This document shows positions 9,303 through 61,947 of a DNA stretch of 64,000 bases, one piece after another. The DNA is from Solen grandis (taxonomy: Eukaryota > Mollusca > Bivalvia > Adapedonta > Solenidae), in NCBI GenBank assembly GCA_021229015.1, contig CM037782.1, positions 37,246,912 through 37,310,911 of the forward strand, written 5' to 3'. Position 1 is the stretch's first letter, and every line of letters begins with the position of its first letter. Under the pieces are notes generated by a model. The model saw only the letters and a program-made list of their open reading frames with translations. It had not been told where the DNA came from and made no database searches. The translations under genes were made by a program, and so were the position numbers.

Positions 9303-12300
9303 CAGGGATCAAATTTAACACTCGCTAAATGCGGGTAATTCTTTCAGAATGCGAGTGCCAAAATGAAGTACTTGCAAAAATGTGCAAGTCCATTTCAAAA
9401 GTTCCGTTTTTGTTTTGCAAAAGCATCGGAGAAATTTAGTTGTTTTTGTCTGTGTCCGAGTCCTAAAAACGTTTTGTTCTGCAATTGCGATAGTTATTTC
9501 CCTTTACAGTCTTTCTGCTACGTCAGCGTGCAAGGGAGATCAACTGCAGAGAAGTTTGTATTTTCAATGTTGTCTGGAAGCTTTCTGTAAATATTTTCGA
9601 TAGCTTTTCAAGCGATTAACAACGCGTATTATCGTCTGTCAGCATTAGAATGATATCATCGTTCTTCAAAAGAAAATGTGAAGGATCCAGCGATGGTGCC
9701 AGCGCATCGAAGGTGCCTTCATTTAATTCAAAATCGATTTCTTCTTGCCCTTCCCCACGATTTGTCACAGCATCAATCAAAACCGTCAAAAAGTGGGAAC
9801 GAGAATTAAATATCAGTCTTGAGTATGAAGTGTCAGACGATGGACATTTAGTCACACAGTTATGGTGTGCTGTATGTAAGCAGCACTCATGGGACAAAAC
9901 ATCTAGTGTTACTTTATTTTACATTTTGACACGTTCTGCCAATGAGTAAGTAAAATTCCATATTAATTAAATATTTATAAATGGAATTGGCCCCAGCTTA
10001 CTCATCTTTTTAAATTTTCTGTCTTGTCCAACCATCTTGGGAGGGTCTTGCACACAATGGGTGTATTCAATGGGCTCTGCCCTAGGGGAACCCCTGCCCG
10101 ATTTTTCAATTTTAACAGGAGTTGATAGTCAATTGCAGGGCTGTACCATGGTAATTCCAGAGCTGCACTGCTACATTGATTTGTATTTTAATTCTATGTT
10201 CACTGTAAATGTGTCCTAATTTATGCCAGAGTATAAATCATAAAATGCTTAGGGTGATCAATCTAGAGATCTCTTGGTACTATGTTCTTTTACAGTTTTT
10301 GCTTATACTTTTGTAGATTTATATAATTATATTTGCAGTTGGTGACTGGCAGTAAGATTGTGAAGAAGGAGAGTGTGATGTGTCACAGGAACTCAGCTGG
10401 ACACAAGGCAGCTCTAGATACTAAGGTTGATGCCCAGAAAATTGCAAACAACAAACCTACAGAAATAGAGGCTTCATTTCAGAAGATGGACGAACAACAT
10501 TTAGTTAAAATGACTTACTTATTTAACACTGCTTACTATGTTATGACAGAGGAGAGGCCATTTAGTGATTTCCCTAAACTTATTAAACTACAAAGTAAAA
10601 ATACTCTTGATTTAGGTGAAACCTTCTGCAATGATATGGCATGTAGAAAATTTGCAGCTGAAATTGCTGGGTATCATTTTGATGACACTAAAATGAAACT
10701 TCATAATGCTGACTATTTCAGTATCTTCAGTGATGTTCCACTGACAGAACAGAGAGTGAAAAGGAAGTCATCATGGTCAAATATATTGAAAATTTCTACC
10801 CCGTCATTAAGTTCTTAAAACTGGAAGAACCACAAAATACTAAAGCTCTAGGCATTTTGGAAGCTGTTGATAAAGCATTTTGTGACTTTGGTCTGGAAAA
10901 CTATCATGAAAAACCTGTTGGGTACTGTTCAGATGGGGCAAGTGTGATGATGGGTTCCAAAAAGGGGGTAATTAAACTTTTAAAGGATATCAAAAATGCT
11001 CCATGGGTTCTTAGTGTATGGTGTTTAGCACATAGATTAGAACTTGCAGTTAAAGATTGTTTCAAAAATACATTCATGGACGAAGTCATTGAAGTATTAA
11101 AATTTATTCATGACTTCTACAAAGGGTCTTCAAAACTTAATAAGGAGGCTGAAGAAATTGCTGATCTTGTTGAGGAAGAATTTTTGAAACCTGAAAAAGT
11201 AAATGGCACAAGATGGATTGATCATAAGCTCAGAGCTACTTCAAAATTACTGAGGAATTGGTTGGTCATTGTAATGCACATGGAAAACTATTCTGAGGAC
11301 CATTCTAATAGGGACAGTGACAGAGCAAAGGCAAATGGAATTGTCAAAAGATTGTGTCAATATAAGTTCCTATGGTTTCTGCATTTTTTGAAAGACTTAT
11401 AAAATGAATTAGCAAAAGTGAGTCTAACATTCCAAAGAGAAGACATAAACACATCTAGTGCCATTACAAAATTACAGGCTTCTGAAGTGGCTTTGAGGGG
11501 GTTAATGGATGACCTAGGAGCGAACCAAGTTGAATTTGATGATGAAGTTCAAATGCAAGATGGTAAGCATGTGTATAAAGGTCACCAGCTAAGAAACCAT
11601 GTGCCATATGAGAGTCTTAATAGACAGAAAGTTGCCATTGTCCAGGATATGATTGACTGCTTACACTCTAGATTTGAAAACATGTATGAGGACCAGAACT
11701 TTCTTGTGTGCCATGTCTTTGATCACAAAAATTGGCCTGACAGTGAAGTAGCTTTGATGCAGTATGGTGTTGCGGAAGTCACATATCTTCAATCACTTTA
11801 GACCTGTTTTGGAAAATGCAAACTGTCAATTAGATTCTGCTGTACAGGAATTTACGGAACTAAAATTGCATGTTGCTAGAAATGTTCATTTTAGAAACAC
11901 ATATCCACTTGCTGTGTGGCAGAGAGTCAGTCAAGAAGATGAAGGAAGAGGTGATTATAGGAACATTTTGAAAATAATACATCTGATAAGTGTGTACCCC
12001 CTATCAAATGCCAGCTGTGAAAGGTGTTTTTCAGCAATGAAACGTATAAAAAGTGATTGGAGGTGCAGGCTTAACACTGTTACTCTAGACCAATTGATGA
12101 GAATAGTACTGTGTGGACCAGATCTTGCTGACTTTGAAGCCAGACCCATTGTACGAAGGTGGTGGTTGAACGGACAGAGAACAAAAAGGCCAACTACTGT
12201 CCCATATGGACCAAGGGATTGAATTTGTCATGTGCTGTCAGAATTGTATTCAGTCAGTAAAAAGTTGACCTACACATGAAGTGACACTGACTGTCCAGCT

Positions 12301-24799: not shown

Positions 24800-25155
24800 C
24801 AGGACTGCCACAAAATACGCCCATCACAGTATGGGGACTCTCAGAAATAGCTCAGAGAAACCTAAATCCCATTAGTTAATGAATGTTACTTATTAAAACA
24901 ATCATGTTGAAAGTTTGAAAAGGATTGGTCCAACAGTATTGAAGTTAGAGCCCAGACAATCACAATTTCAAGTATTTTGTGTACGTCAAGGGTCATAACT
25001 TTTAGGTCTTTCACGCGATAATGCTGGATATCGAACTCATCCGTGATATTATGGCCATGCACATGTGTGAAAAGTTTGAAAAGGATTGGGCTAACGGTAT
25101 TGAAGTTAGAGCCTGGACAATCACAATTTCAAGTATTTTGTGTACGTCAAGGGAT
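24800..25155. repeat. ATACGCCCATC repeat, left half of a split copy
   Basis: Starts near 24817 with ATACGCCCATC and carries ~155-bp internal units (AGTTTGAAAAGGATTGGTCC, GAAGTTAGAGCC, TTGTGTACGTCAAGGG). It stops abruptly at 25155 in the middle of a unit. The unit continues at 40266 after the 15.1-kb element. Confidence 0.75.
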
Positions 25156-25660
25156 CCCTTACGAAAACCACTTTCTGACAACACACTTGCACTGAACTGG
25201 TAATAAGCTAACACAGCAATGATTTCTAACTGACTTTAAAAAGTGCTGTCTGACAATTCACTGAAATCCACAGGGTTTCACACTGGTATGAAAAAAAAAA
25301 ATCTTGAAACACACTGACAGATAATTTCATACTGTTGCCAGTCTCTGACATCAGACTGGCAGTACAACTGGTTATAAACAGATTAGAATCAGTGCCAAAA
25401 GGAGGTATGACGACACACTGACAATAACCTGACATTAAATGGAAAGAATAACAGACATGACATTAGACTGACAATAAAAAACTTTGACTTTTAATATTTC
25501 AGACTTATATCTGAGTATAAGCTGACATTAATAACATTTTAACTAAACAGCAGCAGTGATCGCTTCTGATCTGACAATAAACTGACAATAATTTTCTTTA
25601 TCATTTCTTAACAAACTTGTATACTGACAACACACTGGCAACAAAATTTTTTATCATACT
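25156..25660. repeat. left subterminal word array of the giant element
   Basis: TCTGACA, ACTGACA, CTGACAAT and ACTGGCA words recur every 15-40 bp, mostly in one orientation (for example near 25240, 25310, 25415, 25470, 25580, 25625). The mirror array lies at 39560-40265. Confidence 0.75.
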
Positions 25661-26559
25661 TATACCACAGACCCTATCAATAGATTAACTTTAGAAAAAG
25701 TGTTTTTTAAAAGCAAGCTTAAAGGCGTATTTCACAATAGTGCCATTTTACTATATAGACAAAGAAGGAAAATCAAAACTTGCGGACAGTTTTTTTTTAA
25801 CTTGGCATGATTATATAGAGAATCACATCAGGAACAAATTTATGGAATAAAAAAAGGCAGTCACTATGCTATTTTTGGAGTTATCTGCCCCTGAAAGTGT
25901 GTTTTTGGCTTTTTTCTTCAATTTTCAAGGGCAGATAACTCAGTATTATGGGTCATCAACTCCAAATTTCATTTTAACTCGATGTTTGATATTATATCCC
26001 CTATCACTGTGCAAAAGATGTAGAAATTCTATTCAGCAGATTTTATACTCTAATTGTAAACGCAAAATATAAAGAAATATTCTTAATTTTTTCAAGAAAA
26101 ATGCTATATGTCTTTTGCTAAATATTGTGAGAAATTAATTTAATGGAATTTTTTAAAATTTTTAAAAAAATTGAAATAAAATAGAGTACCAAAAGGCTTG
26201 AGTATTGAGTTATCTGCCCTTGAAAATGAAAGAAAAATGAAAAAAAAATGGCGCTATTGTTAAATACCCCTTTGTCAAGATGATACTATATCGCTCAGGT
26301 TGGACCTCTACATTTACAAGGTAAACTAATTATAGACAAGAAATTGTCAGAAGACAATAAAGCTCGCCAGGCAGAGCGCTTTACAACTAGAGCTATCACT
26401 AAATACGATTAATATCCAAACACAGCGTCTTGTCTCTATGAAAAAGAGGGACGGGACAGGAAATACACACATACAGACAAGATAAAGAACAAGATTCCAA
26501 TATAACACCCCCCCCCCACACACACACTAACATACTACAGTAGTATAGGCATAAATACA
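25661..26559. other. spacer inside the giant element, no gene seen
   Basis: AT-rich. 26340-26460 resembles a truncated start of repeat family B (CTAGAGCTATCACTAAATAC). A C9 run and CA repeats lie at 26508-26526. Confidence 0.4.
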
Positions 26560-26941
26560 CCACTTTCTAGTCAGTATTCTACTTTCTAATAAGGTGAATA
26601 AACCCCGCCCCCTGGCAGCCATGATTTTTAATGATTGGAATAATTTGAACAATCTTGGTAGAGAGTCACCCAATGACATGTGCAAATTTTTTTTGAAATC
26701 CGGCCAGTAGTTTTGGCAACCATATTTCTGCACAGAATCAAAATATTTGAACAACTTTGAAAGAGCATCACCCAAGGAACTATTAAGTGTCATAAAAATT
26801 GGCCAAGTATTTTAGCTTGAGATGTCGATAAAAGAAAAGTGTTTACGTCAGACTCACACACGGACGGATGTGCAACACTTGCCAGACAACAGGTAATCAC
26901 AATAGCTCATCTTGAGCACGTTGTGCTCAGGTGAGCTAAAA
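26560..26941. repeat. palindrome-ended repeat family A copy
   Basis: Internal family text (CCCCGCCCCCTGGCAGCCAT, CCGGCCAGTAGTTTTGG) and the right-end palindrome AGCTCATCTTGAGCACG..GTGCTCAGGTGAGC, ending at 26941. It sits downstream of the transposase stop codon. Confidence 0.7.
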
Positions 26942-27017
26942 ATTGCTAATATTTAAACTTTTCAGCTTTACACAATAAATTTTCTTTCATTTATATGTAA
27001 CTGAACAGCTTCTACAG

Positions 27018-30000
27018 TTAATCACATTCAAAATAATTTGGCAATTCACTAATATAGAGCTCATTTCCAATTTCCATGTATACACATTTTGCAATTATAT
27101 GATCTAAATAAACTACAATTAAATGGTCAGTTTCATGAACTTTTTTTATGTGCAATTCTGTGTGTTGATTATGGATGCTTCCCATTTGTTCAAATGACTG
27201 CATTAAGGCCATTGCCCTTTCAGTCCCAATTTGTACAAAATACTTGATTTGTCCATATGCGAGAGCTGCATTGTGCTTGAATTTCACTGTGTAAGAATTT
27301 CTCTTTGACACTCGCGAATAAGATGATGAATGATAAACTGAGCCATGCATATAAACTCGTTTGAAAATCTTAACTGGGGTATTGTTTTCTGCTTGAACAA
27401 AATTCAGCAATGTAATCCGTTCATAATGTGGGAGATTTGATATTTTTTTCTTTTCTGTTGCTCCCACCACATGCATATCTTCCATCAGTGGCTCTTTCAG
27501 GGTAACCCGATGTTTCTTTGAAAGCAAATCCAGTATTTTTGCAGCAGTTTCATTCTCTTGTTTGAATTTTCGGCTGTAGAATGGGAGTTTTTGAGAAAAC
27601 ACAACTGCATTTAAAATCTGTCCATCCACATGCTGTGTTCCATGGAAAAAATTTCCCAACTCTCCATTATAGTCCTCAAAAGAGAAACAAGATGAAGTCC
27701 AAAGTGGTCCTAACTGACGAACAGTGTCTGGAATATGAAGGAGTAGATGAAAATTTATTGTCATATATTTTTCACCATATAGATTTTCCATTAACAGACA
27801 GAATGAACGGAAACATTTTCCACTTTCCTCGATGTCTTCAATAGAGATTGAAGTTGACAACAGCAAATATATACCCTTCACAAGGTACATGAAATGATCA
27901 TAATACAAATCAGGTAATATTCCTTTCAAACAAATAGGACTGTAGTGCAGGAGCCAAACTCTCAATTCCGATGCCTTGAAGTGCTTTAAATGTTCCTTAA
28001 TTGACCTTGGTGTTCTGGTTACGGAATTGGGCGGGCAGATACTTAAGAGCCTCTGGTCTACTTTATCCACCTTGTCACCAATGTAACATGCGCCAGACTT
28101 ATTTGCAACATTAAACCAAACTGTAAGCATTCGTTTCACCACCCCATGACACACAGTATGCATGTAATCAACAGAAATGCTGTTCACAACATTGAAGGAC
28201 TTTAGGTCAAAAAATGCACATTTTTTCTTTATGCCAACCACCGGTTTTTTTTTGGCAAGTGCATCCTTTGCATTTTCTAATATACTTTCAGAAGTTCGTG
28301 CTTTTGTAAATCCAGCAGCTGATTCAACATTGAATGGGTACGCATGTGCATGCCCTTTACCGCTTTTAACAGTTTTACCCTTTTCTTCACAAAATGAACA
28401 ACCATAGTTACCATTGTGGTGTACCTTTTGAAGGAAATCATCCTTTGCAGGTGTGTCAAAGTGTCCTGTAAGAGCAACAATTCTTGAATGAACTGTACCG
28501 ACAGAAGTTTTGAATGATTCTCCATTGATTTCTAAATGCTTTAATTCATTAATGATTGGTTTAAACATTACATTCATGTCGGGCTTTCTTTTTCCACTCC
28601 ACAAACCTGCAAGTATTCTATACTTTGATTGAGTCCTATTTTCAGGAGGGAGTTCATTAATCTGGCAGTACACAGGCCAGAGATGGAAAGAGGATGATTT
28701 GAATACTGATACACCATCTGTATTCACTTTCAGTGACATATTGAATTTTTCACTTAAAATTCTATTATTTTCAAATAATGCTTTGTACATTTCCCCATCA
28801 AACACATCTTCGATATTCTGGGTATCCTGTCTTACTCTTGTGAATCTGTATTGCAGGAGGTCACAAAATCTGTCATCAGCAAAAAAGGACTGAATCTGAC
28901 CTGTGATAGAAAGTTTGATAAATTGTGAAATATCTTTTGTAACCTTTTTACATGACTTGCAATAGTCATTTCCACCCATTTCAGTTAAGCACTGGTTACA
29001 ATACCTACTTATTTCCATTGGAGTATCACAACAGTTCACGAAAGCTTTCTTTAACTGACTGACACTTGAAAAATAGTGACAGCCTTCAGGCAAGTGTGCT
29101 TTAATTACTGACAAAAGGTCAATCAAAGCTGCACCTGTAATTTTATGACACATTGCATATTGCAATATCAATACGGCACTTTCATCTGCTGACAATTTAC
29201 ACTCTTCATATAATTTCTTATCATTTTCCACAACATTTAAATCTGTTTCATCTTCAGAAAATTCACTGTTAGTGTCAATAGCATAATCTTCAAAATCAGA
29301 GTCACTTAAAACACTGTTTGTATCATATTCACTTTCCTGGTAATCCTGATCAGACTGAACATATTCTCCTTCTTCAACTGTACAATTATCTGTCACCACC
29401 TTCTGAGTTTTATCTGAATCCCTCAAGGCACCAGATGCACTAAAAACAAAAGAAATAAACATAATAATTATATTATAATTAAAAACAAGTGGGCCATGAT
29501 GGCCCTTAATCACTCACCTGAGTATCATTGCTAGATGGAAGTATAATCTGGAATAAAATTGCCTAATGATAGTGTAAAATGCGTAATATGTTATTTTTAG
29601 AGAATATATTTAAAGTTTTTACTATAATTATGTACATAAAAGGCAAATTAGCCCCAACCCCTGGTGGCCATGTTTGTTTCACAGATCGGAATAATTTGAA
29701 CAACCTCGGTAAAGGTTACCCATAGGACGTCTGTGCCAAATTACTTTGAAAACTGGCCTATAGTTTTGGAGAAGTTGCTTAAAGTTTTCACTATATACAT
29801 AAAATTCAAATTAGCCCCACCCCTGGCGACCATGTTATTTTACGGATAGGATCTTAGCAGAGGGCCTCCAAAGGAACATCAGTGCCAAATTATATTGAAA
29901 TCTGGCCAATAGTTTCGAAGAAGTAGTTGCTTAAAGTTTTCACTATATACATTTGAGGCAAATAAGCACTGTCCCTTGGCCCCTTTTTATGAATCTGAAT

Positions 30001-33000
30001 AATTTGAACAACCTTGGTATAGGTCGTTTAAAGGTTTATCTATATACATATAAGGCAAATAAGCCCCGCCCCTGGCGGCCATGTTCTTTTTACGGATCGA
30101 AATTATTTTAGCAAACTTTGTAGACATCCACCCAAGGGACATCTGTGCCAAATTAGTTTGACATCTGGCCAGTAGTTTTAGAGGAGAAGATTTTTTTAAG
30201 TTTTTGAAAATCATTTTTATTTCCGTTGCCATAGCAACCAGAGTTCTTAATGGATCAACTTTATTTGAGTATCTTTTGTGAAGGTTCACCCAAGGAACAT
30301 CCCTGCCAAGTTTCATTAAATTCTGTCCAGTGGTATCAGAGATGTTGTTTAAAGAAAAATGTTGACAACAAAATAAATAAAATAAATAAATAAAAATAAA
30401 CTTTGGCATTATTATTTTTGGTAATTTGCAATCAATTATCATCAATATTAATAAGAATGATTTTGTGGTCCCAATAAAACTGTTCACTTGGATTATACAA
30501 CTTTCATACTTGTCTAAAGAAATCCTCCTTTTCTTGCGCTGGTAGCATTTCGTTGATTTAGGCTGGCTTGCTGCAGGATTATCATCTTGAAGATATTGAC
30601 AGTATAGTCGTTTTACTTTCTTACTGGAGTCCTTGGAAAGATCTGCAAAAATCACAGAATGTTACAAGTAACTGGTGTAGCACACAACATACAAGGCCCC
30701 TATTGGCTGTGCATATTTGACTATTTTCATTATAACAGTAACCAGAAATTTGGTTTAAGGAAAGAAAAAAAAAATTTTTTTTTTTTTTTTTTTTACTATA
30801 CATGACAGGTACACTTGTCAGTTTTTTCTCCCTTCTTGAGAACATATCAACTGTTTTATATGTATCCTATAAAATTGTCTTTGAAGCCCTGCTGACTTCT
30901 GGATTTATCATATAACGATGACCAGCCTTTTACTGGTGGAGGAAGATTATGAAAGCAGAGGCATCTGGGTAAAACCACAACTGCAAAGCCAGCTAGAAAG
31001 CTTCCTCAAGTTACATACATTTTTGTGCTCTGAAGGAAAAATATTAACAGTAACATGTCACCAAATCAATGATTAAATATTACCTTTATCTTTTTTGTCC
31101 ATATTTTCTGGAAAACGGCAATTCCAAACCTGGTATGAAGAAATAAATAACATAATTACACCAATTAATGCTGAATAAAAACAAGAGCTGGCCATAAGAC
31201 TGCATACTTGACAATTCCATTGACTTCTTGTCAGTATTATTAGGCTAAGTTCAAAGGGGGCCATAATTCAAGCAAAATGCAATGCAGAATTACCTGCCCT
31301 GATAGTTGGAGTTGGAATAAAGTTATAATCCATTATAAGCCTTAGCTGTGGAGACTTTTAGGTTGATCCCAAAAAATTAACCTTGGAGACTAAATCCAAA
31401 AGGAGACATAATTCACTCAAAATTCAATGCAGAGTTAACTCCAAAAAACTTAATCTGTAACGCCAACACCAGCAGGAGTGTAATAGCCAGTCCTTATTCT
31501 TCAAGCTAAAAACATAACCAATGAATACCTTTTTAAATATTATTCTACATAAATCATGCTCATGAAACAAAGTGAAACTGTGAAATCAACTTCCTTTCAT
31601 TCTTATATATAGTTAACAAGAAATCTGTGAGCTACTTCTCACTTTATATACCCCCGTTCTTAAAGGATACATTAGAATTGATTGTTTGTTTCATGGGCTT
31701 TAACGTCCCGACAGTATTTCAGTCATTTGGAGACGATGTCTACTTGAGACAGATATAGTGCTGCCACACTGCAGTATCACGCCGTAGACATCTGGCATGA
31801 TACCACACCCAGTCACATTATCCTGACACCAAGCCAACCAGTCCTGGAACTACCCTTATATGCTGAGCGCCAGGCAAGGGAGCTATACCAGTACCATTTT
31901 CAACAACTTTGGTATGTCAAGGCCAGGGCTCGAACCCACAACCTCCTGCACCGGAGGCGGACGCTCTAACCACTAGACCATCAGGGACGGTCATTAGAAT
32001 TGTGATCATCTAAATAAAGCAATAGTCAAAGTCATTATTTAGCAGGAAGTGTGTGTAAGATATGGCTGAAAAGGGGGAGGGGCAGTATGGGACCCTATAC
32101 AAAACCCCTGTACCAGATTTTATGTGGCTGTAATATTTAGTTGGTGAGAAAATGCAACAAACATTTTTACTCTACATACTAAGCAGAACAAGAGGGCCAT
32201 GATGGCCCTAGATCGCTCACCTGAGTTTCATGCTCTCAAGAGTTGAAATAGAAAACAAAAGTAGTTGGGTTATCTGAATGTGAAAGTAGAATTTAAAAAA
32301 ATTAGCCATTGCCATAGTTCTTCAAAGATCAAGATTATTTTTGCAACTTTTGTGAAGGTTCACCTAAGGAACATCCCTGCCAAGTTTAATTAAATAATGT
32401 CCAATGGTTTAAGAGGAAATGTTGTTTAAAGGTTTCTCTATATACATATAAAGCAAATAAGCCTCGCCCCTGGCAGCCATGTTTTTTTACAGATCGAAAT
32501 AATTTTAGCAATCTTGGTAGACATCGACCAAAGGAACATCTGTGCCAAATTATTTTGACATCTGGCCAGTAGTTTTGGAGGAGATTTTTTTTAAAGTTTT
32601 CAATTATTTTTCTTTTTGTTGCCATGGCAGCCAGAGTTCTTCATGGATCAAATTTATCTGAGTAACTTTTGTGAAGGTTCACCCAAGGAACATCCCTGCC
32701 AAGTTTCATTAAATTCTGTTTAGCGGTTTCAGAGGAGATTTCGTTTAAAGAAAATTGTTGACGACGCACGACGACTGACGCCAGACACCGGGTGATCACA
32801 ATAGCTCACCTTTTAAAAATGCACCGAGTCATTCGAAAGGAAGTGGATGTCCAATATGATCAAAAAGGGGAGGCGCAGTATGGGACCCTATACTGAAGCC
32901 ATGTACCAAACAGAACCTGCAATCTCTGGACCTATTTTTACATTCAACTAAGGATACATGGAATTTAACATTTTAATCTTCAAATGAAAGCATGTATTAT

Positions 33001-34464
33001 ACAATATCATGTACATTTATCCAGGTGACTTCTGTTCACACTGACTTACCCTTGGTTGATAAACTGTCCAGATATTTAGTGGAGGCCAGTATGACCATCT
33101 TTAGGCTGAACTCTGTCAAGGTACCAAGGATGACCATGGTCAGATGGGTGACAGGTGGCCATTCCAAGAGTCTGAAACAAACACTTAGCTGGCTAGAAGA
33201 CAAAACATTTAACATTATTTAAGAGCAAAAAACAAACAAAACAAAAACAGATTATAGACTCTATTAACTCTAATGAAATAAAATTGAAAAAAAAAAGAAA
33301 AAAAGAAAGAACAAAATGTAGCATTTTGATTAATGTTGATTGATGAGTTTAGAGAGAGAGAGAGATGATAAACTTGATGTGGAATGCTCCACAGCCACCT
33401 GAATATTTGTGATCGTACATCTTGACACTCAAGACGTAAGCCTATTATGTACATATAGGTAGCCTCTCGGCCAAAATGCTAACTCATCTCACCTGAATAT
33501 CAGAGAGAGAGAGAGATAAACTTGATCCACAGCCACCTGCATGAATTTGTGATCTTACATCTAGACCCTGACTATATTTGTGTAGATCTACATGTATGTA
33601 TACATAATTATATAATTATATGCAGGTGACGGCCCAAATGCTGATCCGATATTTTAATAAGAGAGAGAGTAAGAGAGAGAGCTTGTGGATGAAGTCTTTC
33701 ATAATAAAGCAAAAACGGAGAGAAAAAAAAACTTTGCAGAAAGAGTTTCAGTATTGCGTTGTCGTTTATACCCTCATGCCATATTGATTACATGAATTCA
33801 TGACGTAGAACATTATGTATAAGTGACGTAATATTTAATGTGCAAGTTAAAGTAAAAAAAACTGTGTTTTGTAAAATTGTGATTCAGGATATTTATGGGA
33901 TATATTGATAAACAGTATGTTTCAATCTCATTTGTGTAGTTTGAAAGATGAAGTCTACATAATATCTTGCTGAACCTGACCCTCTTATAAATTTTTTAAA
34001 AGTGTCTTGATTACCATAAAGAACATTTATTTAATGGTGTGAAATGAATTACATATGCTTTACAGTAAGAAACACAAACATGCGAATAACAAATATAGGT
34101 TATTTGAATGAAAAAAAACTAAATTCCGGAATTATTTTGGGTTACTTTATATTTTCATAAAAACACTGTGCATCAAAAAAATGCAATATGTACGAGGGTA
34201 CAGCAATATGTACAGCAAGGGTTCAATACCAAAAACATTCTTTAAAGAAGAAAAAAATATATAAAAGCAGCTGAGTTAGAACCCATGGCTTCCTTGTTCA
34301 AATAAATGCACTCTCATGCTTGGCTTTAAATTTACCTTCAATTTTTCATCAAGAGACTTTAGAAACTTCTGTGGGTTCAGTAAGGCCTTGGTTTGCTGGA
34401 ACTGGAAATACTTGCTGGCCGATCCACCACCTTCATCAATGATATTTTCATAACTGTCTCCCAT
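27018..34464 (-). CDS. tnp2/CACTA-type transposase, four exons, ~909 aa
   Basis: Exons in transcript order: 34464-34336, 31129-31084, 30642-30510, 29439-27018. Each border has GT..AG (donors GTAAAT, GTAATA, GTATGA), and phases fit at every join (129+46+133+2422 nt = 910 codons). The ATG at 34464 follows an in-frame stop. The N-terminus is Lys-rich (residues 50-100), then a very acidic stretch (about 120-170). A Cys pair-pair knuckle lies near 247-265 (YCNQC...YCKSC). The Transposase_21 core has NTDGVSVF (Asp about 344), LWSGKRKP, GHFDTPAK (Asp about 431) and NGNYGCSFC. A DUF4218-like region has FHLLLHIP, LGPLW and FEDYNGELG (Glu about 691). It should cut and rejoin the element's ends in the nucleus. 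The last exon is open further upstream (to 29513), but those codons translate a repeat end and follow the acceptor. No stop or frameshift is seen. Family is firm, the exact 5' end less so. Confidence 0.8.
29485..30400. repeat. repeat family A copy inside a transposase intron
   Basis: Starts AACAAGTGGGCCATGATGGC, CACTCACCTGAG. It has several internal units with GCAAATAAGCCCCGCCCCTG and CTGGCCAGTAGTTTT, and ends near 30400 in AAATAAATAAATA instead of the usual palindrome. It lies wholly within the intron 29440-30509. Confidence 0.75.
30915..31012. mobile_element. SINE core fragment
   Basis: CGATGACCAGC..TGGTGGAGGAAGA..ATCTGGGTAAAACCAC..AGCCAGCTAGAAAGCTTCCT matches, worn, the body of the SINE at 8985-9233. 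Confidence 0.5.
31680..31993 (-). mobile_element. tRNA-derived SINE, near-complete copy
   Basis: Minus strand: the head starts near 31993 with CCGTCCCTGATGGTCTAGTG (A-box-like) and has the B box GGGTTCGAGCCC (31927-31938). The body (GTGTGGTATCATGCCAGATG, GACTGAAATACTGTCGGG) and a CAAACAA tail end at 31680. Best reference copy of this family in the window; it lies in a transposase intron. Confidence 0.85.
32187..32812. repeat. repeat family A copy
   Basis: Starts AACAAGAGGGCCATGATGGC and CGCTCACCTGAG, with internal GCCTCGCCCCTGGCAGCCAT. It ends ACGACGCACGACGACTGACG then GATCACAATAGCTCACC, with the final palindrome truncated. Intronic in the transposase gene. Confidence 0.8.
33050..33171 (-). 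other. possible additional exon, function unknown
   Basis: Bounded on the minus strand by TTGTTTCAG and a GTAAGT donor. Only one frame is open, giving LLEWPPVTHLTMVILG and STKYLDSLSTK. Its phases (needs two bases, leaves one) do not fit between the transposase exons 34336 and 31129, so it is either an alternative exon that needs another partner or chance. The plus strand is also open here. Confidence 0.2.
33354..33680. repeat. GAGA microsatellites in a duplicated segment
   Basis: (GA)n runs near 33354, 33503 and 33662, with a repeated context ATAAACTTGAT..CCACAGCCACCTG..TTTGTGATC at 33367-33416 and 33516-33555. Confidence 0.7.
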
Positions 34465-35521
34465 AAATTTTAATCTGCGCAGGTAAGTTTGTCTGTGTTT
34501 ACTTCTTTATAAATACATATCCAGGGAAGACACCTGTCAAAAAGCATATATATACATACAGAACCATTTTACTAAACATCACTTGACTTGCAGCATCATT
34601 GGACTCATGGTAATCTCAAAAATAGGGCCCCAGGAGTGCCACTAGTATCTTTTTTTTTTTTTTTTTTTACTTGGTAGCCTGTAGAATGCAATGACAGATG
34701 AAATTGGCTATTTTATTTCTGGCACGGGCTATATACGGCTTTTTAGCTGGAGTACATATAAGTTTTTCTAAGTGTATTTTCCAGAAATAACAAAGAAATA
34801 ATGACAATTAAACCTGTGAATACTGAATATACCCTATACGCGTAGCAGATCAAAACATTTTACTAACGTGACTCCAAGGATGGACATGTACAGCACATAA
34901 GTATGAACAGTACCTGTAGAACCATAGTGTCCGTTATTTGTTTATATCATAAAGCAGATGCTGACTGGCAAAATTGTATCCTTACCAAAAGCTTGGTATT
35001 CTTCCAGTATGGAAACAAAATTTAGATGAATAACTGATTCTAATTTCACCCTATAAAACTCATCACTTGACTCACGGCTAGTAAAATATTTCATGCAATC
35101 ACGATTTTGACATGCATTGCTGCGTCATTCTCTTTCCTTAGTATTTTAAAATGAACAGAAATCTTATGAAAACAAACAAATATTACCTTTTGTGCGCCAG
35201 TGGCTTTCCTTTCTGCAAGGATTCTGCCTATCTAAACGTTCAAAATTTGTCGTACGTAAATATTTTCCTGCTGCTTACAACATTGAAAAATACTAAGAAA
35301 TAACAAAATAAATAAAATGTATATATATATATGCTGTAAAAATGATCAGCGCTTCGTTGAGATCATCCTTACAACATATTGCAAGTAACCACCACCCCCG
35401 TATTGGAATATAGTTTAATGAAATGCAAGTCAGTTATTATTTAATTCCCACATTTTATCGACGCTGTAAGCGGTTACATTTTGCTGGAACGCTTGGCGGG
35501 CTTTTTTTGGAACCGAAAAAA
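34465..35521. promoter_or_regulatory. spacer between two divergent genes, probable shared promoter
   Basis: The transposase start (34464, minus) and the BEN start (35522, plus) face away from each other across 1.06 kb, so their promoters must lie here or in unseen 5' exons. No clear TATA box or known motif cluster was identified. A T18 run lies at 34651-34668. Confidence 0.4.
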
Positions 35522-38500
35522 ATGGAAGGCTTGTATTATTTGGTACAATGGGAGGATAGACTGCTGTCTATTCTGAAGAAAGACAAAATCACCAAACCAC
35601 TGAAATCACAATATGATGAGGGCGACATTGTGACAGCTAAGTATGGGAAGCAACATTTCGAGGCCGTCATCTCGGAAATTCATCGTAAGTATAGCAGACG
35701 AACGCATTTCGCTCTATTTCAGAGAAGTGAATTCTACACATATATTTAAGAAGCCTTAACTTTTGCGCATAAAATTGAAAAGGTTTGAATATATTGACAT
35801 GTATTTTCGGATATTAGATCTATTATAATATGGAGAAAATCATTTTAATATGGTCGGTGATAACATTGTTTTATCTACCTCTGCATCCAGCTTCAGAGAT
35901 GCAAGGTTTTTTGGGGTTTTTTTTTTTTTTTTTGAGATGCCATATGTATATATCATCCGAGTTGGACTCAACTAGAAATTCAAGGTTTCTTATTTTACTG
36001 CAATAAACTTGATATTTAATGGGTATTTTTATGCTCCCCAAAGCGAGAGCATATAGTTTTGGAAAAAAAAAAGTTGGCAGAAATGTTTAACACCTTGAGA
36101 TGATGTGTTGAGTACAATCCCCAGATCTGTAGCTCAACTTTAAGGTCACACTTACTAGTTCAAAGTATAAAAAAAGGTGCATTTTCAGTGTTTCATTTAC
36201 ATTTCAAGATAATGAGTCCTGTACCACTTTATTTATAAATTCAATGAGTCCACTATGTAAAAATTTATCAATTTTAATGAATCCCTGGCAAATTTTGTGA
36301 GTCCAGAACTCGGGACTTGCAGGTAAAAAAATCACTGCATTTTGGGAGCATTTGTCACATCCTGTGACATATCTTGTTAATTTATTTGCTATTATACTGA
36401 CTGTTTGCTTTTGGAAAGGGTCCGTTTGCCAGAGGGATATTAAACAGATTTAGACACTAACTTTTTTGGCAGGTGTCCTGAAGGCATAATTTAGCAAAAA
36501 TTGACACACCTCACTCCCATTTAAAATGCTAAATTTCAGGAGTACCTTCTTAAAGTTTGGTGTCCTTGGGATCCTAAGACAGTTAGTGTTGACCTCTGTT
36601 AAAGGCTAGGACAACCCCTGCTTTTTTAGTGTAAATTGGTTTTATTAAATTAAAATTAATAAGAAAATCAACCCATTAATTGCAGCAAACCTGAAGTACC
36701 TCAAGGAGCAAACAAAACTTCCACCTAAGTACAGCTACGTGGAGGCAAAAAAGCACCAGCTGTCTGCAGGTATGCATAAATAAAATTATGTCAAAAATCT
36801 ATGTGTCCAACTTCTACACTATTGTCCATATGTCTGTCCAGAAATATAATTTTTTATGTCCATGTTTACCAAATCTTGTGTGACAAACTCGTTCAGATGT
36901 CTGCATTTGATTTTGCTTCATAATTTTGCAGATGAACAACTATGATCATTTCCAGTCCACAGAACATCATTTAGAAGTAATACCTTGGTCAATAATTCAT
37001 TATTGCAGCATCAGCTAGCATTATGTATCATACATGGACTCGCTCAAAATAGTGAAATAACATAAGTGTAATTAAAAAATCTGCAATTAGCAGGTTGAGC
37101 AGACATTATTCAGGGCTTTTTTTCACTAGAAGGAGGAGGCCTGGCCTCTCATTTTGGGGGGAAAATATATCGCCAATTAAACAAAAGGGAACAAATTTTA
37201 AAAAATAACTTTTAATTTTAAAGCCAATTTTGGGGTAAAAATGCATTTAAAAAAAAATTTCAGAGGGAAACTATATAGTGACAAAAAGCCAAGTTATTGT
37301 TTGTCGAGTTTAATGTCCCTACAACAATATTTCAGTCATCTGGAGTCGAAGATAATGTCTTCTCGAGACAGATATAGTGACGACACTGCAGTAACACTCT
37401 GTAGACATGTAACATGATCACACACCCAGTCATATTGTTCTGACACTGGACCAACCAGTCCTGGAACTACCCTTATATGCTTAGTACCTGGCAAAATAGC
37501 TATACCAGTGCCATTTTTAACAACTTTTGAATAAAATATTGAAAGAAGGCTTCAGTATCTAATGAAATATGAAGGATATTAAAGTTAAAATAGCTGACAA
37601 TCAGTTCTTAGGTGTGGTTCTTATGATTCATATTAAAAATGCTGAAAATACATTTGATTTGCAATAGGTATTACACTGACACAAGTATATCTGTTGAATA
37701 AATGCTTTTCTGCTTCAGCCTGTTCACTCTCCTTACACACTGGCTGTCAAATCTGCAGCTGTAAATAAAAACAAAAAAACATCAACTTATTAGAAAACAA
37801 TAATGAAAAAAGGAAAAGGTAATATTTTCAGAAAAAGGGGGGGTGGGGGGGGAATAATCTATTGTAAATTGTCACTTACAAGCTTAATGGTATAACTATA
37901 AAAACATACATGTAGTAATTATCTGTAAAAACATCAAAATGATTGACTTACATTTCTTCTGTTTTATTAGACAAATTGGCCAGTCCAGGAATTGAATATC
38001 ATCCATCCTACACAGTTGTTAGTTTGCAAACCATCTGACTATCTTGTTCTTTTCTAGATGGTAGAGGTCTACCCCCAAACCGATGTGTACTGGTATCGTG
38101 CGCAGAGGGACGCAGCGCTGTTTAATGGCAAGGAGCAACCTGAACCCACGTTGAGCAAAATTATCGACATCTTCTTCACAAAAGAAACCCAAAAACAATC
38201 CAGCGCCAGGGGAGGAGGGACCTTCCCCCCTTTGAAACAATACATTGTAATACATATACATTGTTTTACGTTGCATTTTTAACTTGGCTGTGTTTTTTTT
38301 TTTTTCCCTAAGAAAACAATTCAGGTACATTTTGTATTGTCTTCACACTGGTGTCATGATTGTCTGTGTCAGTCATAGTGAAAAACTTTAGCCTTGGCTA
38401 TTATTTCTAAACTACCCTCCAAGTGCATTGGATAGCATATAAAAAATTGTATTTGATAGATAAAAGTTGAAGTACAAATGGTATGCTGCTGCTTTGTTTG

Positions 38501-38724
38501 TTTTTTTTATCCATATATTTACAATTGCTTGTAATTGCCATATAGCATGAATCCTTTTTTTTTTTTTAGGTTTTATACAGAAAAAATGGGAGATAAGAGA
38601 ATCGGCCCTTATTAAAGTTATTAACGATAAATGCAGCCACCAGAGAAGGCCAAGGAGAACAGGGCTGTATAACAGGGAGAAATACCTTCTAATGAAGTCC
38701 AAAAGGAACTGCAAAAATGTTTAG
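35522..38724 (+). CDS. BEN-domain DNA-binding protein, five exons, ~208 aa
   Basis: Exons 35522-35684, 36686-36769, 37971-38017, 38058-38246 and 38581-38724 total 627 nt (209 codons with stop) and every phase fits. Donors are GTAAGT, GTATGC, GTTAGT and GTAATA; all acceptors end in AG. Residues 5-54 look Tudor-like (YYLVQWED, YDEGDIVTAKYG). 56-82 are Lys-rich. 99-190 form a BEN domain: VEVYPQTDVYW, AQRDAAL, LSKIIDIFFTKE, SSARG..TFPPL, then IKVINDKCSHQRR. The tail is basic. BEN domains bind DNA and often act as chromatin or transcription factors. Intron 3 would be only 40 nt, with a plausible branch site and polypyrimidine tract; the weakest point of the model. Divergent partner of the transposase within the same element; may bind its subterminal words (inference). 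Confidence 0.75.
37297..37535 (-). mobile_element. SINE, head-truncated copy
   Basis: TTGTCGAGTTTAATGTCCC, ATATTTCAGTCATCTGGAG, CCAACCAGTCCTGGAACTAC and ATAGCTATACCAGTGCC follow the SINE body in order. The head with A and B boxes is missing. It lies in a BEN gene intron. Confidence 0.65.
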
Positions 38725-39034
38725 AATACTTCAGTAAAAACTATAACTTGTTATACCCCACCTTCACAAAGTAAATTAACAATAAATAGTAACTAATAAA
38801 TGGTAAAACAACTTATTTTTCTAATACTTGAGATAGTATTTTTAAAATGTTGTTCATTTTAAAACCTATATTGAAGGATTGTTGTTATTTTTTTTTTTTT
38901 TGGTGTAGCCTACTCAGATGATTTTTGTTGTTCGTTTTAAGCGGCTTAACCGAATACTTTTTCATTGATTAAAAGTTTGTCGGGGAAAACCCGGGTTGTG
39001 CATTTATCATGTGATAAAAAGAATCTGACACTCG

Positions 39035-39323
39035 TCCTAGTATGCTTTGGTAGTATGTGTGTTCTCATACAAATAATAGACAGAGTGTCCCGAACATATA
39101 TATAGGATCTGATACGAGTTGTCATTTAAAATAAACTTTTCTTCAACGAGTTCAGGAAAACTGTTATTAAGCTTGCCAGAGGCTCGCTTAATAACACTTT
39201 TCCTGAACTCTTTGAAGAAAAGTTTATAGTAAATGACAACTCGTATCGAATCCTTTATATATGTTCGGGACACTCCATCTATTATTTGTACGAGAACGCA
39301 CATACTACCAAAGCATACTAGGA
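39035..39323. repeat. 289-bp near-perfect palindrome (138-bp arms, 13-bp loop)
   Basis: Left arm 39035-39172 (starts TCCTAGTATGCTTTGG) is the reverse complement of right arm 39186-39323 (ends CCAAAGCATACTAGGA), with a few mismatches. The centre is TTAAGC..GCTTAA around a 13-base loop. The arms are symmetric about 39179. It lies near the right end of the giant element. Confidence 0.9.
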
Positions 39324-39559
39324 TAAGTATTACTAAACATTAGATATATATCAAGTTATCAACAAGAATATAACTCAAGTGGTAGTTAAGAAGACTGGGT
39401 GTTTTTTCCCCATACAGAGTTATCAAATGTTTATAAATGTACTGTTATGATGTACTGTTATGTTTTTGTTTTGGGGACCATTGATAATTAAAAAATTAAG
39501 CTCCAAGCTATTTTGGTTTCTTGTCATTGTGCTGCCATTTAAAAAAAAAAAATTTGCCA

Positions 39560-40265
39560 GTTGATTGTCAGTTTGAAACCCTGCAGTATTTATAAATTAT
39601 AAGTGAATTAAAATATTTTGTTTATTAATTTATTGTCAGTGTGTTTTCAGCTTGTATAAAATTTAAGTCCATGTGTTGTCAGATCTGGTAACAGACTGAT
39701 AATTGACAGAAAAAGATCTGAAGCATTTCTGGCAATAAGCTGATACCACACTGACAATGTACCCCATAGTGAATTAAAAAATGGCTATTAATTTATTGTC
39801 AGTGTGTTGTCAACTGGTATAAAATTTAATTCCAGTCATTTATCAGTTCTGAGGTTTGACTGGTAATAGTCTAGCGATAGACTAAAAAGTCCAAAATCAC
39901 TGCTAATGTTAGTGTGATGTCATTGTATTGCCAGAATTATCCTTATTTCCAGTTTATTGTCTGTCGTGTTAGTGTGTTATCAGTTCAGTCTTGTGAGTCT
40001 GAGTCTTGAAATTTCAAAGAAAACGACTATTATTAAAATTAGAATTGCATTATAACTAACCTGACAATAAAATTGTTCCATGCTGGTAATACACTAATTG
40101 TGTGAAGGTTAATAGACTGATTTGCAACTGACAACAGACTAAGTCCATGTGTTGTCAGATCTGGTAACAGACTGATAAAAGACAGAAAACGATCTGAAGC
40201 ATATCTGGCAATAATATGGCAAAAAACTGATTCCACACTGACAATGTACTCCGTTTTCGTAAGGG
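39560..40265. repeat. right subterminal word array of the giant element
   Basis: Dense TTGTCAG, ATTGTCAGTGTG, CTGACAAT, TGGTAACAGACTGATA and CCACACTGACAATGTAC words in both orientations. A ~400-bp inner segment repeats (AGTCCATGTGTTGTCAGATC at about 39668 and 40141). Ends in the TIR GTTTTCGTAAGGG. Confidence 0.75.
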
Positions 40266-40626
40266 ATATAACTTCTAAGTCATTCAAGCGATAATGCTGG
40301 ATATCGAACTCATTCGCGATATTATGGCCATGCACATGTGTGAAAAGTTTGAAAAGGATTGGGCAAACGATATTGAAGTTAGAGCCCGGACAATCACAAT
40401 TTCAAGTATTTTGTGTACATCAAGGGCCATAACTTCTAAGTCATTCACGCGATAATGCTGGGTATCGAACTCATCCGAGATATTATGGCCATGCACATGT
40501 GTGGAAAGTTTGAAAAGGATTGGGCAAACGATATTGAAGTTAGAGCCCGGACAACAAATGTTCCACGCCCGCCCGCCCACGGTGAGTGTTCACATAATAC
40601 GCCCCATCTTAAGATGGGCGTATAAA
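40266..40626. repeat. ATACGCCC repeat, right half of a split copy
   Basis: It resumes the unit broken at 25155 (ATAACTTCTAAGTCATTCA, GATAATGCTGG), runs through two further units, and ends in the hairpin ATACGCCCCATCTTAAGATG then GGCGTAT at about 40625. Confidence 0.75.
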
Positions 40627-41029: not shown

Positions 41030-42239
41030 TGTGACATTCATCAATTATGACTGCAGCCACACTATCTACGAATGATCTCAACAGCATCTTCCCACATTCA
41101 GTGTTCAGTAATGCCTCAGGGTAGGCAAAAATGATAGAATAGAGACCTTCTTCTATTCCTTTAAAATCAATATATGGCTGAATGTCACTAATGGGCCAGT
41201 CACAAATCAGTTGCGATGCGTCGGCGATGGGTAAAACCCGGGAAATTTGAACAAAATCTTGAGACAGATCTCACGATTTTGCACCCGTCGGAGGCGCTCT
41301 CCGGACACCTGCGGCTTGTTGCAGATTTTTTAGACATCGCCACACCCGTCGCGGTCCCCAACTTTGAACTTAAAATTTTAAGATTGCTCGCAAGATTTTT
41401 CACCCATTTTGGGCATCCCAGACACAATCTCCGATGACCTACGATGCCCTCCGATTAATCGGAGGCGTCCTCCGAATAATCTGAGACTAGTCGCAAGATT
41501 CTGTGTGGGATTGGAAATTCAGGTTGAGATTCAATGTCTGCGAGTAGTCTCCGGCGCCCTCTGACTGAATAGGAGGCGCCCTGCTACAATTCGTACACTT
41601 TCTGTGATCGTCTCCAATGAATCGTACGGTGGAATCGTAGTAAATCGCAGTGTATATAAGGGCGCCTCCGACCGGATCGCTAAAAGTTTGAGACGCTCTT
41701 GCTGCAGGAGGCTGTGACAGAAGATTTTGAAGATATCGCAGATATCGTCTCCGATCGCCTCCGATGCAATCGGAGGCTAATCCCACGATTTTTCGACAAA
41801 ACTGGGTCAAAATCCTTGAAAAAATCTCAGACAATGTGACTGCTCCACTTTTATTAGGATTATTGCTAGGATTGTTCAAGGATTCTTTATTTTCTACGAC
41901 GACCCCCGGCCAAAACTAATCCCTGACAGATCGCCGACATTGTGACTGGGCCATAAAGGGCAGGATAAGGGAAGATATGCCATAATCCTTCAATTGTTTC
42001 AGCTGGTCCTCTTGAATGATATTCAAGGGAGAAATCACCAACACTGTGGTTCTGCTGTACCCCCTCCTCTTCATAATGCCTGGTAGCAACTGGTATATGA
42101 TACTCTTTCCATATCCAACTGGTAAATTTACAATTAAATCTCTTCCCTCAGTAATAATTTTCAAACAATCTAATTGTTTCTGTTTTAAAATAATGGATGG
42201 ATTTAAGTCATAAACAGATTCTTTTATAAGTCGTTCCAT
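41030..42239 (-). pseudogene. RecQ-like helicase N-terminal part, interrupted
   Basis: From ATG 42239 the minus strand encodes a RecQ-type DEAD/H start: LKQKQLDCLKII (Q-motif region), NLPVGYGKS (Walker A, motif I), VLVISPLNIIQEDQ (motif Ia) and SSLILPF at about 41955. A 762-bp element lies at 41192-41953. Beyond it the frame resumes with SDIQPYIDF, FAYPEALL and VIIDECHIVEQW (motif II as DECH) to about 41030, ending at a weak GTATCC donor. Removing the insertion and one TAA duplication rejoins the two parts in frame. Later helicase motifs are not seen before the host repeat at 40626; they may lie beyond the 15.1-kb element or be lost. An ATP-driven 3'-5' DNA helicase role is known for the family; this copy is interrupted. 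Confidence 0.7.
41192..41953. mobile_element. 762-bp TAA-flanked element (Harbinger-like MITE)
   Basis: Ends TGGGCCAGTCACAA (41192) and complement TGGCCCAGTCACAA (to 41953), one mismatch in 14. The TAA duplication lies at 41189-41191 and 41954-41956. The interior is CpG-rich and packed with CCTCCGAT / ATCGGAGG and GGAGGCG words in both orientations. No transposase. A three-base T(A/T)A target fits PIF/Harbinger. Confidence 0.8.
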
Positions 42240-42837
42240 ATTTTGATATTTATGTTTGTTTACATTGGTTACGTTACAGTAAAAAAAAAATTTTTTTTTT
42301 TTTTTTTTTCCTTTTTTTTTATTTATATTATTCTTATTATATAAATGATAGAACACTAAAATGATGCATAGAAACAGTTTCTTAACAATTCTTAAAAAAA
42401 GTTAAAAAATGTGTATATATCAGAAATTCTGATAAATGACACTCGTGGTGGCAGAGATCTATGCCGAAGAATGAAGGGGAGATAACTGCGTGGAGACTGA
42501 CTTTTAGTCTGGTTCCCAACATAGTGACAGGGGCAGGTAATCCAGGCTAATTGACTTTGACCTTTAATTTTCATATCTTATCATTTTAGAAACGAAACCA
42601 GTCAAAACGGAATGGTTTAATATGCGGATCATCTTGTAAGATGCCGAAAAATAAACTTTATTTGACAGACGCACGTCAGGGATATCTTTACAGTTGAAGT
42701 GCTGCAGTTTAGAGTTTTGAATTTAAATTTTTGCTACGGTTTCGGATTTTTGGTTGTCCACGGACAAGTCAACAGTGAAAATTTACTTGTCCGTGCTGGC
42801 AAATGTACGACTCGGACAATGGATTTCGCCATCCCTG

Positions 42838-58400: not shown

Positions 58401-61400
58401 CTGCCACAAACTAGCCCAGAATGGTAACTCACTGTACTAGAACATAACAATAATGGTGACTTACTGATTAATAATAACCCATTTTGTGTACTCATCACAA
58501 TCAAATCCGATACTGGTACTCTTACTGACACAATAAACATTAATGTAATCACTGCAACAACAAAGCCATTTTGGTAAAATCTGATGCCATAAACAAACAT
58601 ATGTGTAACTATGCATTACAATCCTATGTTGTAATTCCTGCCACACATACCATATTGGTGACTCACTGCCACCAACAAACCCATTGTGGTAACTCAATGC
58701 CACCAACAAACCCATTGTGGTAACTCACTGCCACTAACAATCCCATAATGGTAACTCACTGCAACCATCAAACCCATATTGGTAACTCACTGCCACTAAC
58801 AAACCCATATTGGTAATTCACTGCCACTTACAAACCCATATTGGTAACTCACTGCAACCATCAAACCCATATTGGTAACTCACTGCCACCAACAAACCCC
58901 TATTGGTAACTCACTGCCACCAACAAACCCATATTGGTAACTTACTGCCACTAACAAACCCATATTGGTAATTCACTGCCACTTACAAACCCATATTGGT
59001 AACACACTGCCACCATCAAAACCAAAGTGGTAACTCACTGCCATCAACAAACCCATAGTGGTAACTCACTGCCAACAACAAGCCCATTGCGGTAACTCAC
59101 TGCCACAAACTAGCCCAAGACATAGGGGTAACTCACTTTGTATTAGAAAGTAAACAAAATGAGTAGCCTTTATGATTTAATAATTAATAGCTATTTTGTT
59201 ACATAATCTTATATCCGGTACATGAAGTATTTTTACTTGAAATATTGAAGATTCGTGTTAACATTAAAGACTGCAAAACACCGTGAGCGCAAGTTTTACT
59301 TCGAAAAGTGTTGGCCGCTTATGGATGTTCCGATTAAACAAACTATGTTAACTTTTTACATCTGGAGTGTTTTTATATTCTATCTCATATATGTAAAATA
59401 TAATAAAAATATTCGTGTACACCTTATAGCAACCACCTCCTAGTTATATTGTTGAATGGATCTGTCATGAATATGTTGCCATGTACTGGAACAACTCAGG
59501 ACAATAAAGAGTAATTGAGATAGGCTTAGCCTTAATATCTTGTCTACGTGAAATTAACATGTTTAAGGTAGCTATAAGCATTAGTTCGGTGTTTCTTAAA
59601 GGCTTCATAATCACGTGGCTTACCAATGCGACTTTAGTGATAGTGTTTCCATTACATGTCATAATGGTACTGTCAAAACCGGTTTAAATGAAAAGATTTT
59701 GAAACGGATATGAAGAGTGTTTGTATTTCTAATAATTTTCTTTTTATTCAATTATGAATTTTTGCTGTTTGTCTACTTATAGTTATTTTGCAATACGTCT
59801 TCAGGTTTCCTTGGACTGTTCGCAAATCTCACGCGTATTGGAAAACGCCTCGTTTCTCAGCATCTTTTGAAATATTCTAAGAGCTGCATCAAAATAGAAA
59901 TATTAGACACATTGAGTAATTTCTCTGAGGGGATATTTTAATAACATATTTTAACGTCTGTAGCAAACAAATCCATCATTCTTACTCGGGATTACTTTGA
60001 CAAATAAAACTATTTATAGTTTCGGAAGGGTTCTGCCTCTTTCGCGTCAAAAACTTATTAAGCGGTTAGAGGCACGCGTGCCTGTATGTACGTATCAGTC
60101 AAATATCTAACTTAATTGAGTTATACTTCTGCAATTTATCAATGCTGGAAACTTTAATGCTTTTGTGAACAGCGTCGAAAATGCTGCGTCAGGGATATGA
60201 TTTGAGATTGTTTCATGTGATTATACATGTATTTGTAAAAGGGTTGGAATGTTGATGTATAATCTTCAAGATATGCTTCAAACCATATATATTTTTTTTA
60301 GTTGATCTCGTTTGATATTTTGTAGCGTCCCGACATAACGATAAGGAATTTATCCCTGAATACTGATTAAATACTCGGCACATGTGACAGCTTTGTGTTA
60401 TTTTAATTCCGTGTTATTTCAAGCAGTTTTTGTTATTGCTTGAATTAATACTTGCGAAAAGAATACAAAAATTCAGCTTGTGTGTTACATCAAATAAATG
60501 GAGAGGAAATATCGAATTGTTAGTCAAACAAGACACACGTTTTCTAAAGATTTAATTCAAATGACTGACATCGACTTGAAAAATGACGGCGTTTTTGTAT
60601 ACAGTATTTCCAAAATACTGTTACAGTTGGTAAACTCCAAGACAATTAGACCAACTCAAGGAGGGAGTTCCTCCGTCACATGGCTATAGATGATCATCGT
60701 ACCATACTATAATTATTTTCAGTTGTTTGGAATGAGACCTCTGTTCAAAGAATATTGGAAATTTATATTTGAATATAGATGATTACTGAAATGACGCTTA
60801 ACGTTATAAACTGCTAAGAAAATCGAATGTTATTAGAGTCCTCTGCAATCTACTGGGTATAAAATGCGCATTTTCCATGAACCACTATTAAACAATATAT
60901 CATTTCACATAGAAATAAATTACCATTCATCTTTATTTACTTCTGCTTCGTATCGATTATTTGTCTGTAATGCTGCTATGTGCAGTTTATGTACACGAGA
61001 CGAAAGGTAATTTTCGTTTAAAGGTGTACTGACTATACTACCATTTAAATCAAATGGGCACACTTTCAGTAGGTCAAATCACATGTTACTCGTACGCTAT
61101 TCGTTATTATTATACGATATAATCTAATTTTATTTTGAGCTGAATATTACTTTTTTTCCTCTTGTGGAAACGCCATATGCATAGAATTGTCTCCTTATTT
61201 ATTATATATAATTTTCATATACATAGTCAACATGCATTACCACTGGACCATGGCACCAAAGTTCCAGGTCAAATCTCTGGTTCTGGTGTACGACATGCCA
61301 AGTACATGTAAACATATGGACCTTGAAATCTTGTTTGAATGTTTCAGTGCCGACGACTTCACTACGGGTTATATGCAAAGTAAGGCTATGGTAAATTACA

Positions 61401-61528: not shown

Positions 61529-61947
61529 GTAATCTCACAAGGTTTGAACTATTGTGTGACTTGTCCAAAACAGGGTCTTACTAAGTTGTCCGTCTCATCC
61601 GGGCCTACAGAAAGAGGACTGTTCAAGAGTCTAGTGCAGGTTTGCCAAAACATCTAAATTCGAGATTTTCCCCAACTCGAAACTACTAAGGTCTGGACCT
61701 CCCTTATTTATTGACTAATAGAATAGAAAATTTGCACACACATTTTTATTAACATACTAATGTAGAAAATGAGTTTAAATATCTGTAATATTTACTACTT
61801 TTGTTGGTTAAGAATTCGAAAGTTTCGAAATAATTTAAATTTTCAGTAAGATATATTTTTGGGGGTAAGATCAACTCAGTTTCATGCCATCCATTTGTTA
61901 ATCTGTTTCCTTATGGGAAGATCATATAAAGAGTTTTCATATGCGAT

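Follow-up and report, generated by a model that had tools for sequence, protein, structure and literature searches.

A recently mobile tnp2-type transposon of Solen grandis with a predicted BEN-domain gene as an apparently inherited second component

Background

Beside a tnp2-type transposase gene in the genome of the bivalve Solen grandis lies a predicted gene for a BEN-domain protein. Is this second gene a part of the transposon, and does it serve the element as a second protein does in plants? Plant En/Spm (CACTA) elements encode TnpD, a tnp2 transposase, and TnpA, which binds short subterminal repeats. Insertion of EnSpm/CACTA elements duplicates 2-3 bp of the target, that of RAG/Transib elements 5 bp. 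A preliminary description, made from the letters of the locus alone, had proposed a transposon with two genes and, in it, a BEN protein as the counterpart of TnpA. We analysed a stretch of 64,000 nucleotides (assembly GCA_021229015.1, contig CM037782.1, positions 37,246,912 to 37,310,911 of the forward strand), in the following called the window, and searched the 1.32 Gb of the same genome, in which other places are given by C numbers. To the reading that the element inherited its BEN gene and that this gene serves the element we assign a probability of roughly 0.7.

Ends and insertion site

The transposon (Table 1) terminates in exact 13-bp terminal inverted repeats (TIRs; CCCTTACGAAAAC), and its termini CCCTTACG..CGTAAGGG are of the type CCC..GGG. 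With up to two mismatches allowed, the two TIRs were the sole matches to CCCTTACGAAAAC within the window, but 27 of 100 shuffles likewise had at least two such loose matches. The insertion broke an older repeat, of which two unsplit units elsewhere in the window were compared (TCAAGGG-TC-ATAACTT and TCAAGGG-CC-ATAACTT). At the insertion the unit reads TCAAGGG-AT-element-AT-ATAACTT, and because the repeat is split with AT on each side, the target site duplication (TSD) is assigned as the 2-bp AT.

Both ends carry arrays of the word CTG[AG]CA[AT] (CTGRCAW), with a density of 24/kb in the left 501 bp and 17/kb in the right 710 bp against a background of 1.0/kb in the element interior and 0.5-0.8/kb outside the element. 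In 1000 first-order Markov sequences the means were 0.6 and 0.4 words and the maxima 5 and 3, compared to 12 and 12 words in the arrays. CTGACAA headed a 7-mer ranking, which was run without starting from the word of the preliminary description.

The exact 13-mer had 21 matches in the genome versus 28 for the reversed control, hence its count was not above chance and was dropped as evidence. Eight of the 21 matches were inspected: four were the ends of the window copy and of a second copy on C3, the other four (L001, L002, L005, L006) had 0-1 words and were chance-like. Two further matches were assigned as right ends by DNA similarity (C7:52496576, C17:9749719). The evidence for the element comes from the word arrays, the broken repeat and the C3 copy.

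Table 1 Features of the transposon, in positions of the window
Feature	Position	Strand	Remarks
Whole transposon	25156..40265		15,110 bp; based on TIRs, split repeat and full-length second copy
Left TIR CCCTTACGAAAAC	25156..25168	+	exact 13-bp match
Right TIR	40253..40265	-	exact 13-bp match to CCCTTACGAAAAC
TSD AT, left copy	25154..25155		split repeat
TSD AT, right copy	40266..40267		split repeat
Left subterminal array	25175..25641	+	12 CTGRCAW words, 11 in the same orientation
Right subterminal array	39565..40244		12 CTGRCAW words, 6 per orientation
Predicted tnp2-type (CMC/Transib clade) transposase	27018..29513	-	open over 831 codons; start Met and upstream exons provisional
Predicted BEN exon 1	35522..35684	+	54 aa; two-frame match in C16, hence broken there
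Predicted BEN exon 2	36686..36769	+	from splice phases; unmatched in C16, unchanged in C3 copy
Predicted BEN exon 3	37971..38017	+	both splice sites conserved in C16
Predicted BEN exon 4	38058..38262	+	first part of BEN domain; donor GTTTTA, aligned C16 donor GTAAGT
Predicted BEN exon 5	38570..38724	+	remainder of BEN domain, with stop codon

Two repeat structures were observed inside the element. An inverted repeat near the right end (39030-39328) has 148-nt arms that are 90 % complementary, with a 3-nt spacer. Two 150-bp stretches (31766-31915 and 37383-37532) are 83 % alike and are probably nested dispersed repeats.

The two predicted genes

The transposase frame was matched by the Pfam models Transposase_21 (43.4 bits, cut-off 28.6), DUF1258 and DUF4218, all above their cut-offs; the DUF1258 match is only a lead as to a placement with Mirage, Chapaev or Plavaka. 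Candidate catalytic residues are D266, D353 and E613, which together with C372xxC375 and H589xxxH593 were present in 26 of 26 aligned proteins. Between the second D and the E the protein thus has the C(2)C and H(3-4)H motifs that mark the DDE transposases of the CMC(T) tnp2 clade. A further set of cysteines was found in all 26 proteins (C172, C175, C185) or in 25 of them (C188). The structure model matched RAG1 and Transib, with the RAG1-like core fold of the Transib/RAG group, and had a BAH-like C-terminus (residues 678-821); the VIA-align list for this model is a re-examination of the matches of Foldseek itself. By its predicted transposase the element is a tnp2 transposon of the CMC/Transib clade. 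Two possible upstream exons, when joined, yielded just weak Pfam rows below the cut-off and were set aside. No tnp2 was found in phage records and viral contigs.

The BEN gene model has five stop-free exons coding for 217 aa and is divergent from the transposase gene. It was predicted from splice signals and from comparison with a relative on C16, which backs exon 3 together with the splice sites of exons 3-5. A profile of the window, C16 and C14 proteins, compared by hhalign with the solved BEN domains, scored 31.0 (P 6e-5), while the maximum in 150 shuffles was 18.4. Over the 128 codons of exons 3-5, window and C16 differed by a pS of 0.75, which is saturated, and a pN of 0.18 (dN 0.20); this relation indicates conservation of the predicted protein, a sign of purifying selection. 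Among other sequence searches, phmmer of the window BEN against the Protein Data Bank gave nothing and then one unrelated enzyme (E 0.2), a BEND5-like query retrieved no BEN chain, and the joined exons had 40 candidates in a protein database, none at E <= 0.01. A fold of exon 1 alone (pLDDT 57) was not used.

The analysis confirmed the structural features of the preliminary description: the exact inverted ends, the AT duplication inside a broken older repeat, the word arrays at both ends and the two divergent genes without stops. Its BEN assignment found support at the level of profiles, though the domain is below the Pfam cut-off.

Copies and relatives in the genome

A second full-length copy (C3:36367662-36383309) could be aligned with the window copy over 15,066 bases, with 61 mismatches and 30 gaps. 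Since it sits in different flanks, the entire unit has moved. These flanks are ATC/ATC or, alternatively, AT/AT plus an extra C at the left end, compared with the 3-bp duplication of EnSpm and the AT of the window. BEN exons 1-4 of the C3 copy are identical to those of the window, the last exon has a 505-bp insertion that duplicates part of the exon, and the transposase frame is broken close to the C-terminus. A right half is located at C7:52487781-52496576 (96-99 % identical in pieces, with insertions), and its right flank likewise starts with AT. Another right end, 97 % identical, is at C17:9749129-9749719. As judged from these sequences, the element is a recently mobile transposon with two genes. 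The C17 right end lies 3.7 kb before a stop-containing BEN match, and the region (C17:9749129-9753622) possibly consists of nested elements.

Diverged relatives retained the combination in part. At C16:17.634-17.65 Mb the order of the window is kept, from a remnant of tnp2 through exon 1 and exons 3-5 of BEN to a right end; the end is 79-85 % identical in pieces and has just 4 strict words, in the last 280 bp. At C14:19.325 Mb, BEN exon 5 (50 % identity over 54 residues) is followed by 12 words in 520 bp and by the end TTTTTCATAAGGG. The BEN protein as query located five places in the genome, each near an element end of the same kind. In an 11-kb stretch (C7:49.484-49.496 Mb) the two ends are 75-80 % identical and the arrays are kept, and matches to BEN or tnp2 did not go below E 0.4. 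With neither gene detectable it looks non-autonomous, and its retention of the arrays fits cis-acting sites.

A further copy with the ends and both genes, of the kind that the preliminary description had advised to search for, occurs in the same genome on C3, and the diverged C16 relative has a right end with a tnp2 remnant and a BEN gene. That description had also named two contrary outcomes. None of the five places of the BEN query had the look of an ordinary host gene. Ends without a detectable BEN do exist in the 11-kb stretch of C7, yet no tnp2 was detected there either. What stood is the BEN gene as an inherited part of the element family, a view supported by the sequences of the C3 copy, the C7 right half, C16 and C14; the TnpA-like role stays conjectural.

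Recurrence of the pairing

The Pfam BEN model had 19 matches in the genome, all above the cut-off, and the window was not among them. Six lie at most 15 kb from one of 49 tnp2 loci, while 0.021 were expected under the presumption of random placement, an excess of about 285-fold obtained with an incomplete list of tnp2 loci (54 of 174 candidates scored). Five of the six are divergent from the nearest tnp2; for the sixth (C1:26590807) the nearest tnp2 is on the same strand and a divergent one is at 11.7 kb. The BEN-paired transposases are 30-39 % identical to that of the window. Transposase stretches showed that C9:39.88 and C2:36.02 hold the same element (99.7 % over 5,269 bp) and that C3:12.92 and C15:32.55 share another (98.7-99.9 %); the stretches compared lie inside the similarity and therefore do not set the element ends. 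Because of these near-identical copies, the six close matches represent at most four families, and two further families were recently duplicated with a BEN match beside every copy. A tree of 54 proteins placed the BEN-paired transposases in three groups (window/C3:36.4, C9/C2 and C3:12.9/C15), with C1:26.6 as a possible fourth; it comprised 24 of the 30 tnp2 loci L009-L038 and 30 of 32 other proteins, the rest being too short and C2:86.4 absent. The partner protein on C9 has a BEN domain and a coiled-coil-like stretch.

Two pairs of BEN matches with equal or near-equal scores (C11:52170321/C19:43614317 and C8:1487853/C17:9753437) had no tnp2 found nearby and are perhaps further transposon-borne BEN copies.

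A number of observations weigh against the reading that BEN is inherited with the element and of service to it. Some would suit a host gene trapped by chance between two ends, in a pairing without function: 13 of the 19 BEN matches are without a tnp2 found within 15 kb, and 40 of the 49 tnp2 loci are without a BEN match found within that distance, the window and C3:36.4 being taken as paired via the window BEN query. The unpaired loci include two that are closely related to the paired C9/C2 transposase, L022 and L037. A missing BEN at tnp2 loci is weak evidence, because many of these loci are fragmentary and the window BEN itself escapes the Pfam model. Two full-length copies, two diverged relatives, the conservation at protein level and the excess of pairing stand against chance capture, which we consider largely refuted and very improbable.

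The remaining contrary points concern the single lines of evidence. BEN exon 4 is interrupted by an insertion in the right half on C7. With a two-frame match to exon 1 and none to exon 2, C16 is a decayed copy, and the 19 kb examined there revealed no left end; the 20 kb examined at C14 revealed no tnp2. The Pfam model PF10523 missed the window BEN in two scans as well as the C16 protein, so that the BEN label needed profile work, and with a plain hidden Markov model of four solved BEN domains the window ranked second of 5001, one of 5000 shuffles scoring higher. The C9 BEN was not significantly similar to that of the window, and for this reason the recurrence could mean repeated capture. The recurrent pairing reflects either an old partnership that has far diverged or a repeated uptake of BEN genes.

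Possible function of the BEN protein

We propose that the element is a DNA transposon of the tnp2/CMC(T) clade which moves by cut-and-paste, was active recently and carries two genes transcribed in divergent directions. The transposase, with its RAG1-like RNase H core and C2/H2 motif, would cut at the CCCTTACG ends and on insertion duplicate 2 bp, perhaps 2-3 bp, of the target. The BEN protein would bind the CTGACAATA / CTGRCAW words of both subterminal arrays and either join the ends or recruit or regulate the transposase, like TnpA in plant Spm. The BAH-like domain may link the transposase to chromatin. A binding of the words by BEN is favoured since these are terminal and are present beside BEN in the relatives; that the protein contacts the words themselves has, in our estimate, an even chance.

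The words may instead be bound by the transposase, with BEN binding something else. The gene-less C7 stretch with its arrays is compatible with either binder, the cysteines C172, C175, C185 and C188 could hold zinc, and nothing decisive speaks against this explanation, which we nevertheless rate as rather unlikely. BEN proteins are repressors and chromatin factors, and the element-borne one could be a regulatory or anti-silencing protein that acts on expression or chromatin and is dispensable for joining the ends. Its membership in the element is established by sequence, whereas word binding is something we only infer, and a precedent are the TET/JBP genes in fungal transposons, thought to counter silencing according to PMC12730594. 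The terminal words kept near BEN in diverged relatives, dense in C14 and thin in C16, are at odds with a purely regulatory role, and we regard it as doubtful. Both explanations overlap with each other and with the proposed service of BEN to the element.

In a broader, tentative view, BEN and a BAH-bearing RAG1-like tnp2 transposase might form a transposition system of two components that is old and widespread among animals and in which BEN is the partner that binds the ends, even in deeply separated branches of the transposases. Host BEN transcription factors and the BEN proteins of such transposons may have exchanged genes in evolution.

Comparison with known systems

RAG1/RAG2, ProtoRAG and Transib differ from the element by their 5-bp duplication, compared to 2 bp (or 3 bp) here, by the BEN partner and by the BAH-like domain, which in the element is predicted within the transposase itself. 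With the solved BEN proteins insv, BEND6, NACC1 and Bsg25A the element protein shares the C-terminal position of the domain; unlike these it is transposon-borne, very diverged and below Pfam detection. As in plant En/Spm, a tnp2-domain transposase (Transposase_21) is combined with a second element-encoded protein, subterminal word arrays and a short duplication. In contrast to En/Spm, the second gene is a divergent gene of its own for a BEN protein, with a presumed binding to the words, and the ends are CCC..GGG instead of the CAC..GTG given for EnSpm in PMC12730594. The element is therefore not EnSpm proper. PMC12730594 also unites EnSpm, Mirage, Chapaev and Transib in the CMCT clade, with which the element shares a DDE domain whose second D and last E enclose C(2)C and H(3)H. 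Harbinger/Nuwa elements, which according to PMC12730594 encode a transposase and a Myb/SANT second protein, are likewise built from a transposase and a separate DNA-binding protein, but of a different transposase superfamily and DNA-binding domain. The main text of PMC12730594 has no word starting with BEN, and among the papers listed in searches of open-licence PubMed Central none was seen to describe BEN paired with tnp2.

The element offers a concrete candidate for the second protein of tnp2 transposons outside plants, and in the genome of S. grandis the pairing is not a single event. The BEN protein and the CTGRCAW words are a natural pair for studying DNA recognition by BEN domains, and the transposase, RAG1-like and with a BAH-like domain of its own, provides a point of comparison for RAG1-RAG2. 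Caution is advised in annotation, as BEN genes of such genomes may partly be transposon genes.

Neighbouring frames in the window

Several adjoining open frames at 10327-12219 presumably belong to a broken transposon gene of the hAT or zinc-finger type. To the right of the element, an open frame on the minus strand (41919-42401) resembles what we take to be the start of a RecQ-like helicase, and the frame at 61139-61654 is presumably a ligand-binding exon of a nicotinic acetylcholine receptor.
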